Positions 17,563 to 23,610 of a DNA stretch of 64,000 bases are shown here, one piece after another (the first letter of the stretch is position 1; each line of letters begins with the position of its first letter). The stretch comes from Planctomycetota bacterium. Lineage in GTDB: Bacteria; Planctomycetota; Phycisphaerae; Phycisphaerales; UBA1924. The notes under the pieces were generated by a model. The model was not told where the DNA came from and did not search any database. It was given only the letters and a program-made list of their open reading frames with translations. The stretch is from NCBI GenBank assembly GCA_033763975.1, contig JANRJM010000012.1, positions 62,001 to 126,000 of the forward strand, in the 5' to 3' direction. Position numbers and translations under genes: made by a program.

Positions 17563-18585
17563 TTACCAGATCACTTCCACGTCGAAGGTCACTCGGTCCT
17601 GCATGATGTCGGCGTCGTGGTCGGTCAGGCCGATCTCGTAGACGCCGCCGACGCTCACGTGCGGGCTGAGTTTCCAGCGGGCGCCGAAGCCGGCCCAGAC
17701 GACGGACGACCCGCTGACGTCGGCCGAGCCGAAGTTGGCGTAGTCGAGCCCGCCGACGCTGAAGGGCAGGCGCGTGCCGTCGGAGGTGTAGTGCACGCCG
17801 TGCAGCTCGACGACGGGCGCCAGGCCGGGGACGCTCTCGGGCACGATCTCGTAGTCGGCGTGCAGGTCCCACATGAAGACCTGGTTGCCGTCGTCCTCGT
17901 CGAAGGGGATGCGGTAGGTGGCGCTGCCGATCACGTGGAAGCGGTCCCAGCCCTTGGCCACGGAGATGAACGGGCTGACCTCGGTCGTGCCGAACATGGC
18001 GATCTTGCTCTCGCCGGAGTCGAGTGTGATGCGGGCGCCGGCGGTGGCGACGAAGTCGTTCTCGCGATCGACGTAGAACGCGTACTTGAGGCCCGCGGCG
18101 ATCTCGTTCCAGCCCTCGTCCTCGGGCAGGGCTCCGGCGTTCAGCCACGAGTACCCGTCCTTGGTCGCGATGAAGCCCAGGCGCTCGGTCAGCGCGACCC
18201 GCGCCTGCAGGGCGACGACGTTCACCTCGCCGCCGGCCAGCTGCGAGTCATCGGAGAAGGTGTGGTGCAGGAAGAGGAACCGCACGCCCGTGTTGTTGAA
18301 GGGGGTCTCGAAGTACAGGGGCTGGCCGACGGGGTTGTAGAAGTGCTCGAACCCGCGCAGGCCGGAGAGGAAGCCCTCCCAGCCGATCTCGGAGTCGTCG
18401 TGCCAGCGCTCCGGGCTGAGCAGGAACGTCGCGCGATCGCTCAGCGTGTCGTTCCCCGTCGCCGGCGCCGCCGCGCCCGCCGCGCCGTCAGCCTGCGCCA
18501 TCGCGGGCGATACGACGCACCCCACCCCAGCCGCCCCGGCCGCGAGCGCCAACGCCCGCAACCACGCACGCGATGCACCAGCCAT
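17563..18585 (-). CDS. Outer-membrane beta-barrel protein, unknown role
   Basis: 340 residues. A signal peptide (about 1-31, ending PAMAQ) precedes a chain of alternating amphipathic strands rich in Gly, Tyr and Trp. The last residue is an aromatic Trp (FDVEVIW), the usual signal for outer-membrane barrel assembly. The start is the ATG 6 bases after AAAGGAG, an unusually strong ribosome site here. I cannot assign a family; a porin or surface barrel is likely. It follows the class V PLP gene on the same strand after 154 bases that include AT-rich sequence, so it may have its own promoter. Confidence 0.75.
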   Translation of the reverse strand: MAGASRAWLRALALAAGAAGVGCVVSPAMAQADGAAGAAAPATGNDTLSDRATFLLSPERWHDDSEIGWEGFLSGLRGFEHFYNPVGQPLYFETPFNNTGVRFLFLHHTFSDDSQLAGGEVNVVALQARVALTERLGFIATKDGYSWLNAGALPEDEGWNEIAAGLKYAFYVDRENDFVATAGARITLDSGESKIAMFGTTEVSPFISVAKGWDRFHVIGSATYRIPFDEDDGNQVFMWDLHADYEIVPESVPGLAPVVELHGVHYTSDGTRLPFSVGGLDYANFGSADVSGSSVVWAGFGARWKLSPHVSVGGVYEIGLTDHDADIMQDRVTFDVEVIW

Positions 18586-18739
18586 GTTGGCTCCTTTCAC
18601 TCGCCGGCCCGTCCGGGCTCGGCTCGTGACAACTGTATCCGTTGGTCCGCAATGTGTCGAGTACATGGCGCGGGCCCCCGGCCTGCCCGGCAGGCTCCCA
18701 AGACGAGAACTATCTCGTAAACACCTACTTTGTATGTAT

Positions 18740-19999
18740 TTAAGCCGTCACACGGACCGGATGCTCGCGCGCGAGTTCTTCGCGCAGCGCACCCGCGAAC
18801 CGGTCGAAGTCGGCGTCGTCGACGTACACCTGCGACGATATCCGGACAATTCGGTAGTCTTTGGGGCCAACCCGCCACACGGGCGCCACCATGCGGTGCC
18901 GCTCGAACAGCGCGTCCTGCAGCGGGTCGTCGTAGCGCGTCGGACGCCCCGCCGCGTCGGCCGCGGGCTCCGGCAGCGGGAGCGAGGCCATGCACCCCAC
19001 CATCGACGCGGGGGCGGGCTCGTCGATGCCCAGGGCGGCGCACAGGCGCGTGCGGGCCTGCAGCAGGCGCGTGCGATTGGCGTGCATCAGCGCCGGCCAT
19101 CCGCCCGGGAGAAGCCGCCCCATCGATTCCAGCGCCTGCGGGATCGAGAGCAGCGCGCTGTAGTCGGTCGTGCCGAAGTAGTCGAAGTCGCGCAGGAAGC
19201 GGGATCGGTCGGGGCGCACCTTATGGGCGCGGCTCGAGAGCGCGAGCGGGCGGAACCGCGCCTGGCGGTCCGGGCGCACGTAGACGAAGGCCGAGCCCTT
19301 CGGAGCCGACAGCCACTTGTGCCCGCTGCCGACGTAGTACGTCGGCGCGAGCCCGCGCACGTCGACGGGCACCTGGCCGGGCGCGTGCGCGCCGTCGACC
19401 ACCACGTCCACGCCCCGCCGGTTGCACTCGTCCACGATCGCCTTGACCGGCAGCACCAGCGCGCTGCCCGACGTCACGTGGCTCACGAACACCAGGCGCG
19501 TCCGGGGGGTGATCGCCCCGCACACCGCCTCCACCACGGCCCGGGGCGTCGTGCCCGGGAACGGGATCGCGGCCTGCACGACCCGCACGCCCCGCTCCTC
19601 GCGCAGGCGGTCCAGTTCGTTCAGCAGCGACTGGTACTCGTGGTCGGTGATGACGACCTCGTCCCCCGCGCGAAGGTCGGCCGCGTGCAGGATGGTGCAC
19701 AGCGCGACGGTCGCGTTGGGCAGCAGCGCGAGGTCGGTCGGGCGGCAGTTGAGGAACGCGCCCAGCGATTCGCGCACGCCGTCGAGCAGCCCCTCGAGGT
19801 CGACCTTGAAGAACCGCACCGGGTCGCGTTCCATGCGTTCGCGGTACGCGGCCTGGGCGCGCGCGACCGGCTCGAGCAGCGCGCCGTACGACCCGTGGTT
19901 GAGGAACGTGAGCGACGGGTCCAGCAGCCAGCGGGGCGGCGTGGCGGGACGCTCGGGCGACGGGGCGTCGCTCAGGACCGTGAGGTGCGGAGGGGTCAT
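18740..19999 (-). CDS. Class V PLP-dependent enzyme (isopenicillin-N-epimerase-like), copy 1
   Basis: 419-residue fold-type I PLP enzyme of the class V aminotransferase group. The N-terminal signature FLNHGSYG, the cofactor Asp in VVVDGAHAPG and Lys228 in GSGHKW (Schiff base with PLP) are present. This branch includes isopenicillin N epimerase-like, cysteine desulfurase and C-S lyase enzymes, so substrate cannot be read directly. It lies 101 bases after the cysteine dioxygenase gene and is a paralogue of the enzyme at 20771-21997, suggesting a role on a sulfur amino acid. Start is the ATG of MTPPHLTV. Confidence 0.87.
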   Translation of the reverse strand: MTPPHLTVLSDAPSPERPATPPRWLLDPSLTFLNHGSYGALLEPVARAQAAYRERMERDPVRFFKVDLEGLLDGVRESLGAFLNCRPTDLALLPNATVALCTILHAADLRAGDEVVITDHEYQSLLNELDRLREERGVRVVQAAIPFPGTTPRAVVEAVCGAITPRTRLVFVSHVTSGSALVLPVKAIVDECNRRGVDVVVDGAHAPGQVPVDVRGLAPTYYVGSGHKWLSAPKGSAFVYVRPDRQARFRPLALSSRAHKVRPDRSRFLRDFDYFGTTDYSALLSIPQALESMGRLLPGGWPALMHANRTRLLQARTRLCAALGIDEPAPASMVGCMASLPLPEPAADAAGRPTRYDDPLQDALFERHRMVAPVWRVGPKDYRIVRISSQVYVDDADFDRFAGALREELAREHPVRVTA

Positions 20000-20100
20000 T
20001 GCGGGTGGCCCGGGGGGGTGTGGCGGACGCCGCCGGCGGCGCCGGACGAGCGTAGTGCTATCGGCATGCGCGCGGGCGCCGCCCCAGTCTCGCCCGCGCG

Positions 20101-20697
20101 CTAGCAGGGCATGTCGTCGGTCGCGTCGGCGTACTGCTCGCGGCAGGTGTCGGGCACCGGCTGCGTGAACTCGTACACGTTCATGCGCTTGATCGGGGGC
20201 GAGTAGATGTGCAGCGTGATCAGGTCTTCCCCCGGGGCCTGCATGTTGGCGACCTCGTGGATGTCCGCGTCGGCCGCGGCACAGACGTAGCCCGGACGCA
20301 TCTCGATCGTCTCCACCGGGCAGATGAGCCCGGAGGGCGTGGGCGCGAAGCGGATCTCGGTGCCCACGCCCTCGACCACGCGGAAGGCGCACGACACGCC
20401 CTTGTGGTCGTGGATCGGCGTGCGATCTCCCGAACGCCAGCAGAGCGCGAGCAGCTCGTACCACTCGGTCTTGCGGATCGTGTTGCGCTTGTACCCCTTC
20501 TGCCCGAACAGGCACGACGGCGCGATGTCGCGCCGTCCGACGTCCAGGCCCTGCAGCAGCGTCGTCAGCACGCCCAGGTCGGCACGCCCGCGGAGCGAAT
20601 CGAGATACTCCACCAGCGCCCCGAGCTTGGCGTACGTCTCCCCGCCGTGCGAACAGCGGCACATCGACGGAGCAACACCGGCGTCTGCCTGCGTCAT
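20101..20697 (-). CDS. Cysteine dioxygenase, type I
   Basis: 198-residue cupin that oxidises L-cysteine to cysteine sulfinate with O2 and Fe(II). Metal ligands His96, His98 (PIHDH) and His147 (DIHEV) are visible. Arg71 in YKRN matches the Arg that holds the cysteine carboxylate and separates this group from mercaptopropionate dioxygenases. Cys103 and Tyr165 (LHIYSPP) align with the Cys-Tyr crosslink pair of mammalian enzymes, a pair usually broken in bacteria. The start is the ATG five bases after GGGAGG, not the ATG six codons earlier. It sits between two class V PLP genes on the same strand. Confidence 0.92.
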   Translation of the reverse strand: MTQADAGVAPSMCRCSHGGETYAKLGALVEYLDSLRGRADLGVLTTLLQGLDVGRRDIAPSCLFGQKGYKRNTIRKTEWYELLALCWRSGDRTPIHDHKGVSCAFRVVEGVGTEIRFAPTPSGLICPVETIEMRPGYVCAAADADIHEVANMQAPGEDLITLHIYSPPIKRMNVYEFTQPVPDTCREQYADATDDMPC

Positions 20698-20770
20698 AGC
20701 GGCCTCCCGGCACACGGTACCACGAGCGGCGGGCCCTGCCCACCCCTTCCGGAATCCGCACGGCGCGGGG

Positions 20771-21997
20771 TCACAGTTCCCGTTCGCGGGCGAGTTCCTC
20801 GCGCACGGCGTGGGCGAGGTACTCGTACTGGGCCGCGCTGTTGTACGCCTGGGCGCTGATCCGCAGGAATCGGTCCGTCCCGCCGCCGAGCCCCCAGACC
20901 GGCACCTGGATCCCGTGCCGCCCGAGCAGGGCGTCTTGCAGGGCGTCGTGATACCGGGTGGGGCGGGCGGCGAGGCGCGCCCGGCGATCGGGATCGTGCG
21001 CCGGCAGGATGATCGTCGCGATCGACCCGATCATCGATTCCGGGGCCGGTGGCTCCACGCCCCACGCGCGGCACAGCATCGCCCGGGCCTCCAGGCACAG
21101 CGCCCGGTTCCGGGCCATGTGCACGGGCCAGTCGGCGCTGATGCGCGGGACGGCCTCGAGGGCGTCGGCGATGCAGTAGACACCCGTGTAGTCCTGCGTG
21201 CCCACGTAGTCGAACTCGGTGTGGAACACCGAGCGGTCGGCACGGGGCTTCTCCGCGTTATTGGACAGCGCCAGCGGGCGGAACCCCTCGCGTCGATCGT
21301 CCCGCACGTACAGCATCGCCGAGCCCTTGGGCGAGCAGATCCACTTGTGGCAGTTGGCGGTGTAGTACGCGGGGCGGAGCGTCCCCAGGTCGAGCGACGC
21401 CACCATGCCCGGCGCGTGGGCGCCGTCCACGAGCACGTCGACGCCGTGTTCCTGCAGCGCGGGCACCACCTGCTCCACCGGCAGCACGAGCCCGGTGGGG
21501 CTCGTGACATGGCTGACGAGCGCGAGGCGCGTGCGGGGCGTGCGGGCGCGCAGGTACGCGTCCACGACCTGCGCGGGGTCGCGGATCGGGAAGGGCACGT
21601 CGGCGAGCGTGACGCGGGCCCCGGCCTTCGCCCCGGCGTGCCGGACGGCGTTCTGGCACGCGGGGTACTCGTGCGCGTTGATCAGGATCTCGTCGCCGGG
21701 CGAGAGACGCAGGTTCGCCAGCACCGTCGCGACCCCGATCGACGCGTTGGGGATGAGCGCGAGGTCGTCCGGCCGGCAGCGGACGAACGACGCGAGGGCC
21801 GCCCGGGCGCGGTCCATCTCGCCCCAGTGGCGCTCGACAAAGAACCGGACGGGCTCGTCCTCGAGCTCGGCGCGCAGGCGGGCCTGCGCCTGCTGCACCA
21901 CGCGGGGAGTCGCGCCGAACGAGCCGTGGTTCAGAAAGACCCGCTCGGGCGAGAGCGACCAATGCTCGAACAGCGGCGAGGGGGCAGGGAGTTTCAT
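20771..21997 (-). CDS. Class V PLP-dependent enzyme (isopenicillin-N-epimerase-like), copy 2
   Basis: 408-residue paralogue of the enzyme at 18740-19999. Shared landmarks are FLNHGS, VSHVTS, DGAHAPG, HKW (Lys218, PLP Schiff base), PKGSA and the RPLALS segment, with a closely similar C-terminal domain. The stop is 73 bases before the cysteine dioxygenase gene, so the three minus-strand genes can form one operon with this one first. The substrate is unknown; cysteine sulfinate desulfination is one inference. It is divergent from the YeiH-like exporter gene. Confidence 0.87.
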   Translation of the reverse strand: MKLPAPSPLFEHWSLSPERVFLNHGSFGATPRVVQQAQARLRAELEDEPVRFFVERHWGEMDRARAALASFVRCRPDDLALIPNASIGVATVLANLRLSPGDEILINAHEYPACQNAVRHAGAKAGARVTLADVPFPIRDPAQVVDAYLRARTPRTRLALVSHVTSPTGLVLPVEQVVPALQEHGVDVLVDGAHAPGMVASLDLGTLRPAYYTANCHKWICSPKGSAMLYVRDDRREGFRPLALSNNAEKPRADRSVFHTEFDYVGTQDYTGVYCIADALEAVPRISADWPVHMARNRALCLEARAMLCRAWGVEPPAPESMIGSIATIILPAHDPDRRARLAARPTRYHDALQDALLGRHGIQVPVWGLGGGTDRFLRISAQAYNSAAQYEYLAHAVREELAREREL

Positions 21998-22136
21998 GAC
22001 GCGGGGAATCTCCGAAGCCGGGGAACCTGCGGCGACGGCGGTCGGTGGCCCTGTCCGAAGGTCCGCCGCACGTCCTCTCGCTCGGTCTGTCGCCGGGCCC
22101 GTCGCACGGGGCGCGACGCCTGTAGAGTAGCGGCCC

Positions 22137-23249
22137 GTGCCGGAACCCCCCGCAATCCCGGGCGAACGCCCCGCACCCGCGAGCACCGACCGGGCGGGCG
22201 CTGACGTTGCGAACGCCGCGCCCGTCCGCGCCGGAGCGCCGCTCGGGCCGCAGAGTTCCCCGGCACCATCGCTCGCCACGCGGATCGTGTTCATCGCGAC
22301 GCTGATCGGCGTCGCGGGCCCGTGGGGGCGCACCGACCTCGCCCTCGTCGCCGGCATCGCGCTCGCACTGCTCGGCTGGACGGCGTTCGCCCGCGAGGGC
22401 AAGATCGTCTCGAAGCACCTCATCCAGGCGTGTGTCGTGCTGCTGGGGCTGCGCCTGGACCTGGGCGAACTGGCACGCGGCGCGGCGGACGGTTTCGCGC
22501 TCGCCGTGGGCACCATCCTCGGCACGCTCGCGCTCGGGCTCGCGCTGGGACGCCTGCTCCGCAGCGGGACGCAGGTCTCGGTGCTGGTCTCGTCGGGCAC
22601 GGCGATCTGCGGCGGGTCGGCGATCGCGGCGGTCGGCTCGGCGATCGGCGCCAGTTCGTCGTCCATGGCCGTCGCGACCGGCGCCGTGTTCATCCTCAAC
22701 GCGGTCGGGCTCTGGACGCTGCCCCCGATCGGGCACGCGCTGGGCCTGAGCGAGGTGCAGTTCGGCGCGTGGGCGGGCGTAGCGCTGCACGACATCGCGT
22801 CCGTCGGCGGGGCGGCGAAGTCGTACGGCCCGGCGGCGCTCGACACCGCGAACATCGTCAAACTCACGCGCGTCGTCTGGATCTTCCCCATCGCGCTCGT
22901 CGCCGGACGCCTGCTGCGCGACGGCGCCCCGGGCAACCCCAAGTCACCCTTCCCGTGGTTCATCCTGCTGTTCGTGGCGGCGAGCGCGGTGCGGACATTC
23001 GTGCCGGCGCTCGCGTCGATCGAGTCGGAGGTCAAGAGCGTCTCGGGCGTGGGGTTCCAGGCGGCGCTCTTTTTGATCGGCGCGGGGCTCTCGCGGGCGG
23101 CGTTGCGGAGCGTCGGCTGGCGGGCGGGCGCGCAGGCCGCGGTCTTGTGGGTGATCGTTGCCGCTGCGTCGCTGGGCGCGGTGGTGTGGCTCTCGCCCGA
23201 CACGGACCACACGGACGAGCCGGGCGAGTCGGCGGCGACTACGCCGTGA
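22137..23249 (+). CDS. YeiH/UPF0324-family putative sulfate exporter
   Basis: 370-residue integral membrane protein with about nine to ten hydrophobic helices. The signature SSGTAICGGSAIAA (about 155-170) and HDIASVGGAAKSYG (about 220-235) identify the YeiH family, annotated as putative sulfate exporters. The GTG start begins a ~45-residue Pro/Ala-rich cytoplasmic tail not usual for the family; a later start is possible. It diverges from the PLP/cysteine-dioxygenase operon across a 139-base gap, compatible with disposal of sulfur oxyanions. Its 3' end overlaps the next gene by 11 bases. Confidence 0.85.
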   Translation: MPEPPAIPGERPAPASTDRAGADVANAAPVRAGAPLGPQSSPAPSLATRIVFIATLIGVAGPWGRTDLALVAGIALALLGWTAFAREGKIVSKHLIQACVVLLGLRLDLGELARGAADGFALAVGTILGTLALGLALGRLLRSGTQVSVLVSSGTAICGGSAIAAVGSAIGASSSSMAVATGAVFILNAVGLWTLPPIGHALGLSEVQFGAWAGVALHDIASVGGAAKSYGPAALDTANIVKLTRVVWIFPIALVAGRLLRDGAPGNPKSPFPWFILLFVAASAVRTFVPALASIESEVKSVSGVGFQAALFLIGAGLSRAALRSVGWRAGAQAAVLWVIVAAASLGAVVWLSPDTDHTDEPGESAATTP

Positions 23250-23610
23250 CGTCGAGGTTCGAGCCGGCGTGCACGCGGGCGTTCGCGGCGTGGCGGAGGG
23301 CGGCGGCGTTGGCGTCGGCCGGCCTGGTGTAGAGCGCCAGCGGGGCTTCGGGCGCTCGGGGCCCGCCCCCGAAACTCACGCCGGGCTGCACCCGGGCCGC
23401 GAGCAGCGGGGCGACTTTCTCGCGCACCGCGCGGGCGCGCCCGGCGACGGGCGCGTTCGCGAGGTCGACGGTGTCCTGCACCACCGCGGCGCGAGCGCCG
23501 ATCGAGCCGGCCGGGGCGTGCGCCTGGGGCGTGTGCGGCGACGCCGCCCGGGCCGCGGGGGCGCGGGGCGAGCCAAACGGAAGCGGGGCTGGGGTGGCGG
23601 AAGCGTCCAT
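23239..23610 (-). CDS. Small hypothetical protein
   Basis: 123 residues, Ala/Pro-rich, no signal peptide or membrane segment. It carries VQDTVDLAN near the middle and LYTRPADANAAALRHAANARVHAGSNLDV at the end in separate conserved-looking blocks, hinting at a real, mostly disordered protein. No function recognised. It is convergent with the exporter and overlaps its last 11 bases. The start is the ATG of MDASATPAP; the upstream extension is unlikely. Confidence 0.55.
   Translation of the reverse strand: MDASATPAPLPFGSPRAPAARAASPHTPQAHAPAGSIGARAAVVQDTVDLANAPVAGRARAVREKVAPLLAARVQPGVSFGGGPRAPEAPLALYTRPADANAAALRHAANARVHAGSNLDVTA

Follow-up and report, generated by a model that had tools for sequence, protein, structure and literature searches.

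A recurring cysteine dioxygenase neighbourhood with class V PLP enzymes and a YeiH-superfamily exporter in Planctomycetota: a possible module for oxidative cysteine disposal

Gene arrangement of the locus

The window analysed here is the whole stretch of 64,000 nucleotides taken from contig JANRJM010000012.1 of a member of the Planctomycetota (Phycisphaerae; Phycisphaerales; assembly GCA_033763975.1, positions 62,001 to 126,000 of the forward strand). It contains a gene for a cysteine dioxygenase (CDO), two genes for class V pyridoxal phosphate (PLP) enzymes, labelled PLP1 and PLP2, and a gene for a membrane protein related to YeiH. These four genes are considered here as a possible system for the oxidative disposal of cysteine.

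18740..19999, minus strand: PLP1, class V PLP enzyme (Egt2/LolT branch), 419 amino acids, downstream of CDO; Aminotran_5, 2.3e-24
20101..20697, minus strand: CDO, cysteine dioxygenase, Arg-type, 198 amino acids; CDO_I, 1.4e-12
20771..21997, minus strand: PLP2, class V PLP enzyme (Egt2/LolT branch), 408 amino acids, upstream of CDO; Aminotran_5, 1.2e-19
22137..23249, plus strand: YeiH/PSE-superfamily membrane protein, probable sulfite exporter, 370 amino acids; PF03601, 4e-49

The first-pass annotation had described PLP2, CDO and PLP1 as lying on one strand with a YeiH-family gene divergent from them, and both the open reading frames and the Pfam matches bear out this layout. The intergenic gaps, taken from the coordinates, are 73 bp (PLP2/CDO), 101 bp (CDO/PLP1) and 139 bp (PLP2/exporter). 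PLP1 and PLP2 are 48% identical, and the genome of the window has a single CDO_I match. In the following, this genome is labelled G000, other G and L numbers denote other genomes and loci, and PLP1, PLP2, CDO and YeiH serve as gene labels.

Conservation of the neighbourhood

Two samples were searched, one of 120 genomes from the family to which the window belongs and one of 150 genomes from across the class. A CDO was called clear at 115 bits or more, and 14 weaker rows were counted separately. Gene distances were measured from the matched stretch and not from the whole gene, and the counts of linked PLP and decarboxylase genes are lower bounds, with one second piece of a split PLP match excluded. 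Many of the sampled genomes are drafts, and contig ends conceal neighbours.

Clear CDOs are present in 59 of the 120 family genomes (60 copies), and CDOs of any strength in 72. YeiH homologues are present in 45 family genomes, and 43 of these, covering 27 of 28 genera, also have a clear CDO (Fisher p 1e-16, kinship ignored). At least 30 of the 60 clear CDO copies have a PLP relative within 1.5 kb, every one on the same strand, and at least 25 of the 45 YeiH genes have a PLP gene within 1.5 kb, every one on the opposite strand. The exporter is found within 1.5 kb of 19 of the 60 clear CDO copies. PLP genes lie on both sides of CDO in at least five genomes (G000, G152, G203, G209, and G239), all but G209 with the exporter too, and the full four-gene set is present in at least these four family genomes from three genera. 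Because the neighbourhood recurs and the rough chance of a given gene falling within 1.5 kb is 0.0014, the four-gene grouping stands above chance. The 14 weak CDO-like copies of the family sample have no PLP neighbour among the matches listed.

The class sample contains a CDO in 26 of 150 genomes, the exporter in 28, and both in eight, and the two genes are neighbours in all eight; 18 CDO genomes are without the exporter. Another family (f18) accounts for six of these eight; its exporters share 28-33% identity with that of the window, and in five of the six genomes CDO precedes the exporter on the same strand, the two genes being convergent in the sixth. As the f18 YeiH is only about 30% identical, the link between CDO and exporter spans two exporter subfamilies. 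Conservation had been named at first pass as one of the points on which the idea depends, and the neighbourhood recurs in both genome samples.

Among 80 named loci that carry the best-matching PLP relatives, the flanks fetched hold a CDO in six cases, the exporter in five, both in one and neither in 70; these loci are mostly outside the window's family and partly overlap the 120-genome sample, and hence are not independent of it. A constant functional partner of the PLP genes was not seen in the CDO-less genomes examined. Among the open-access papers listed as matches, judged by titles and the beginnings of abstracts, none deals with a CDO together with this PLP family and YeiH.

Cysteine dioxygenase

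Members of the CDO family convert cysteine to cysteine sulfinate. The CDO of the window scores 47.9 bits against the CDO_I Pfam model (cut-off 23) and can be aligned with CDO type 1. In an alignment of 14 sequences, comprising the window's own and 13 chosen from the class sample, the iron-binding residues H96, H98, and H147 are invariant (14/14). Y69, R71, C103, H163, and Y165 are equally invariant (14/14), and we take their rat CDO equivalents to be Tyr58, Arg60, Cys93, His155, and Tyr157. Because the active-site residues are invariant, the enzyme is predicted to use cysteine; judged from its sequence it should act on this substrate, and a Cys-Tyr crosslink could form.

Branch, fold, and active site of the PLP enzymes

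A profile of ten PLP relatives, searched against solved structures, scores 200.8 bits with Egt2, 178.9 with LolT, 115.8 with C-DES, up to 109.7 with SufS-type enzymes, and 66.8 with CsdA; PLP1 alone places LolT and C-DES slightly above Egt2. The predicted model of PLP2 (pLDDT 96.8) aligns with Egt2, whose structure is titled carbon-sulfoxide lyase, over 393 residues with Z 46.3 and rmsd 1.9. The fold ranking of this model gives LolT and Egt2 at Z about 46, C-DES at 41, and SufS and PvdN at about 40, and Foldseek ranks Egt2 first. Profile and fold place the enzymes with Egt2 and LolT and not with CsdA. A desulfinase role, which the first-pass annotation called new, would be new for the Egt2/LolT branch, although the class V enzyme CsdA is already known and annotated as a cysteine sulfinate desulfinase. 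None of the NCBI family models scanned reaches its threshold with PLP1 or PLP2, including the NCBIfam sufS model (62.8 and 51.2 bits, respectively; cut-off 475.1).

The active-site lysine is conserved in the PLP1/PLP2 family. The alignment with E. coli CsdA and SufS, where we assume the catalytic roles of the residues compared, keeps the PLP lysine, the aspartate, and SufS threonine 278 and arginine 379 (K218, D191, H217, T267, and R379 match). The column of the desulfurase cysteine, which stands in the motifs RTGHHCA and RAGQHCA in the passages available from one study (PMC8300815), is occupied by Ile363 in PLP2 and Met370 in PLP1. The column of SufS His123 holds Tyr111 (Y111), and this tyrosine is invariant in 56 of 56 aligned sequences. 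Its equivalent in Egt2 is Tyr134, a tyrosine in 5uts that is replaced by phenylalanine in 5v12, the structure titled Y134F.

These features also bear on a role of the PLP enzymes as ergothioneine sulfoxide lyases or Fe-S cysteine desulfurases, which is very improbable. Among solved structures, PLP2 and the family profile both match Egt2 best, the fold is of class V, and EgtD is present in three genomes with linked CDO and PLP genes (G003, G013, and G032). However, EgtD (PF10017) was not found in 103 of the 120 family genomes, and its absence from G000 disfavours the ergothioneine role. The desulfurase role is disfavoured by the replacement of the C-terminal loop cysteine, and G000 holds five higher-scoring Aminotran_5 places.

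A tree of 123 relatives (midpoint root, SH-aLRT 96) has all 34 CDO- or exporter-linked PLP enzymes in one half (63 rows) and none in the other (60 rows). Within the linked half, PLP1-type enzymes (26 rows, 10 linked) and PLP2-type enzymes (31 rows, 21 linked) form separate groups. The columns 162, 246, 264, and 370 were chosen post hoc from a ranked list with partly gap columns in its top rows, and as a lead and not a test, position 162 is Ser in 33 of 34 linked and Asp in 57 of 89 unlinked enzymes, position 246 is Asn or Ser in 31 of 34 linked and His in 63 of 89 unlinked enzymes, and position 264 is Tyr in 32 of 34 linked and Trp in 51 of 89 unlinked enzymes. Position 246 aligns with SufS Gly253, and position 264 lies three residues before the threonine. 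A change of the pocket in the linked enzymes is plausible, and shared ancestry is an equally good explanation.

Decarboxylases beside CDO

A group II PLP decarboxylase (PF00282) lies beside at least four of the 60 clear CDO copies (G150, G175, G186, and G254) and beside two weak CDO-like copies (G179 and G236), as typed in the 21 rows on contigs that also carry a CDO row. These six copies have no class V PLP gene or YeiH within 1.5 kb among the matches listed. The two decarboxylases scanned have the diaminobutyrate and aspartate decarboxylase models as their best matches, far under the cut-offs, and they might act on cysteine sulfinate. The class V enzyme seems to replace another PLP enzyme able to consume cysteine sulfinate.

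The same decarboxylases favour a taurine route, in which decarboxylation of cysteine sulfinate would yield hypotaurine, and taurine or a sulfonate would be handled by the PLP enzymes and exporter. G000 has one such decarboxylase gene elsewhere. The route is nevertheless improbable for the locus in question, as the neighbours in the window include no decarboxylase, and the decarboxylase-linked CDO copies, four clear and two weak, are those with neither class V PLP gene nor YeiH close by. At two loci, L309 (G186) and L310 (G254), CDO has a group II PLP decarboxylase on one side and a cystathionine-gamma-synthase-like gene on the other (the latter by a model match in L310 and by eye in L309), and this looks like a taurine-type cluster.

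Exporter and sulfite

The exporter scores 167.6 bits against PF03601 (cut-off 24.5), is 27% identical to E. coli YeiH, and is by its sequence a divergent PF03601 member. The earlier name of YeiH-family exporter holds at the level of PF03601, and not at that of the NCBI YeiH model (TIGR00698). According to the passages available from one study, a Salmonella yeiH deletion is sensitive to sulfite and not to sulfate, and YeiE is a sulfite-responsive regulator of yeiH (PMC12880088). This is a resistance phenotype, and those passages contain no transport assay. Because the deletion is sulfite-sensitive and not sulfate-sensitive, sulfite is preferred over sulfate as the exported product, and the first-pass proposal of sulfite or sulfate export keeps its first part while the second is less favoured. 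By analogy with this relative, the exporter of the window probably moves sulfite.

The sulfite oxidase domain PF00174 was not found in 116 of the 120 family genomes, G000 included, other sulfite-oxidising enzymes not having been searched, and its absence favours export. The four family genomes with PF00174 include three with a CDO (G214, G222, and G234).

A short promoter-like element lies directly 5' of the exporter start.

22123..22136, plus strand: promoter-like TAGAGTAGCGGCCC

The element at this place reads TANAGTAGCGGYCC and is present in some relatives too, which suggests a promoter-like sequence and a leaderless exporter message. The form AGTAGCGG occurs in 6 of 16 divergent intergenic regions. 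The exporter-start pattern has its sole match in the window here, a match given by construction since the pattern was drawn from these sequences. A regulator site in the PLP2-YeiH gap was also considered and set aside, as no inverted repeat is common to more than two of the 16 regions.

Unlike the YeiH setting, no LysR match is found among the window genes shown. Close relatives of the exporter lie near a LysR-type gene at five loci of family f8 (L129 by Pfam; L134, L137, L138, and L142 by clustering), a layout likened to that of E. coli, where yeiH adjoins yeiE. The f8 genomes in the class sample have no CDO match.

Proposed pathway and its alternatives

With a probability of roughly 0.5, the four genes form an oxidative cysteine-disposal module from cysteine via cysteine sulfinate to sulfite, followed by export. 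CDO would convert cysteine to cysteine sulfinate. PLP2, PLP1 or both would then take off the sulfinate group via a PLP aldimine to give sulfite, most likely with alanine, and the YeiH-family protein, divergent from PLP2, would pump the sulfite out. Sulfite is a toxic product, and the module would serve its removal. Cysteine oxidation to sulfite with export is, as a module, well supported by the context. The route from cysteine to exported sulfite drawn at first pass gains from the conserved linkage and from the Salmonella yeiH phenotype (PMC12880088, in the passages available), with sulfate as its less favoured product.

The desulfinase step appears to be the likeliest link, in view of the position of the PLP genes, the fold, and the replacement by a decarboxylase. 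The analysis establishes the gene content, conservation, co-occurrence, predicted fold, and conserved active-site lysine described above, and we infer the substrate of the PLP enzymes and the substrate and direction of transport. Somewhat short of even odds, and thus tentatively, PLP1 and PLP2 may represent a new, cysteine-free class of cysteine sulfinate desulfinase that belongs to the Egt2 branch; the two proteins might pair as a mixed dimer, and their module, equipped with a sulfite exporter of its own, would be dedicated to turning cysteine into sulfite and removing it. The second paralogue may have a second substrate or be the partner in such a dimer.

Several results weigh against this interpretation. 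On the side of the exporter, the score against TIGR00698 (85.4 bits) is below the curated cut-off of 232.6, 20 of the 28 YeiH genomes in the class sample are without CDO, 20 of the 45 family genomes with YeiH have no PLP gene within 1.5 kb of it among the matches listed, and 16 of the 59 clear-CDO genomes lack YeiH. Among the matches listed, 24 of the 60 clear CDO copies have neither a PLP nor a YeiH neighbour, and G000 has its one PF00282 decarboxylase on a different contig. The stretches of 14-16 kb retrieved for the six f18 pairs of CDO and YeiH contain no PLP relative, and G241, with CDO and YeiH, has no PLP match among the matches listed; a PLP enzyme is therefore not required for the link between CDO and YeiH. 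PLP2-like proteins are found in at least 110 of the 120 family genomes (E <= 1e-15), as against 59 with a clear CDO. Genomes that lack a CDO match, for example G155, G164, G166, G172, G183, and G213, carry unlinked enzymes from the linked half of the tree, so the PLP substrate need not derive from CDO. These unlinked enzymes, together with the f18 pairs, carry the most weight against a role confined to cysteine sulfinate. Moreover, the solved LolT structure, as close in fold to the PLP2 model as Egt2, is titled Mannich cyclase, and beta-elimination of the Egt2 type would yield pyruvate together with a lower sulfur acid in place of alanine and sulfite.

Part of this evidence favours another explanation, which is unlikely and yet a serious contender. 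The PLP enzymes would act upstream of or beside CDO as C-S lyases similar to Egt2 and C-DES, releasing cysteine or sulfide from cystine, a sulfoxide or a cysteine conjugate. CDO would oxidise the surplus cysteine, a housekeeping aminotransferase would convert cysteine sulfinate to pyruvate and sulfite, and the sulfite would leave through YeiH. The nearest folds are C-S lyases and LolT, the PLP enzymes occur without CDO, and the f18 pairs need another sulfite-making step. CDO follows the cystathionine-gamma-synthase-like gene in G254 and, by eye, a similar one in G186. Mercaptosuccinate dioxygenase is, in the passages available, clustered with a cystathionine beta-lyase (PMC5373536), and mammalian sulfite arises by transamination (PMC7711302). 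On the other hand, tight divergent YeiH-PLP pairs without a CDO within 5 kb (for example G247, G219, G245, G206, G210, and G184) better fit a sulfite-making PLP enzyme, and the PLP gene beside CDO is swapped for a decarboxylase of a type able to consume cysteine sulfinate.

If the desulfinase proposal is true, part of a large class V PLP family without an NCBI model at threshold here would gain a substrate, a dedicated enzyme would stand where the mammalian route has a general aminotransferase, and sulfite handling by PF03601 proteins would have further, independent support from genomes.

Comparison with known systems

Egt2, the hercynylcysteine sulfoxide C-S lyase (5uts, 5v12, and 5v1x), shares with the PLP enzymes the whole fold, the catalytic lysine, the carboxylate arginine, and the equivalent of Tyr134. 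It differs in identity (about 26%), the window genome is without an EgtD match, and the PLP genes here are linked to CDO and YeiH. E. coli CsdA and SufS share the class V fold and the matching residues, whereas PLP1 and PLP2 are without the loop cysteine, have Tyr in the His123 column, and are farther from them than from Egt2 in profile and fold. The exporter belongs to one superfamily (PF03601, PSE family) with the YeiH proteins of E. coli and Salmonella, the latter of which is needed for sulfite resistance; the distance from E. coli YeiH is that given above.

The mercaptosuccinate dioxygenase clusters of Advenella and Variovorax are the nearest precedent found, as described in the passages available (PMC5373536). 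They share a CDO-family enzyme, the release of sulfite, proposed TauE/PSE exporters, and a PLP lyase nearby. In contrast, their thiol is another one, the PLP enzyme is the beta-lyase named above, and the locus tags of the exporters are distant. The mammalian route through CDO, GOT, and sulfite oxidase (PMC7711302) likewise leads from cysteine through cysteine sulfinate to sulfite, and employs an aminotransferase and an oxidase in place of the class V PLP enzymes and exporter seen here.

Other CDO contexts and neighbouring genes

At L048 (G131), CDO and a TauE-family gene converge, and next comes a class V enzyme from a different subfamily that resembles selenocysteine lyases and desulfurases; this may be a parallel solution. 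TauE was rejected as a general CDO partner because it is present in 146 of 150 genomes, and the adjacency in G131 may be due to chance. The CDO of G077, with a NifS-like gene 7 bp after it, was left out of the counts as an isolated instance.

CDO-like genes at L058, L063, L067, and L068 (partly L066) lie beside a sulfate-type ABC importer consisting of SBP_bac_11, two permeases, and a CysA-C-like ATPase (by Pfam on L067, the rest by clustering). L063, L067, and L068 additionally have an FAD/NAD-binding protein and a sigma-54 activator, and the loci of this group apparently represent a separate thiol-dioxygenase system.

One further gene of the window adjoins PLP1.

17563..18666, minus strand: protein of no known family (no Pfam match)

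This protein probably stands outside the pathway. It also adjoins PLP1 in L171, with 74% identity there. At the other end of the group, a small protein at 23239-23484 resembles, by eye, a family of about 100 amino acids (cluster c7) that adjoins PLP genes in other related loci.

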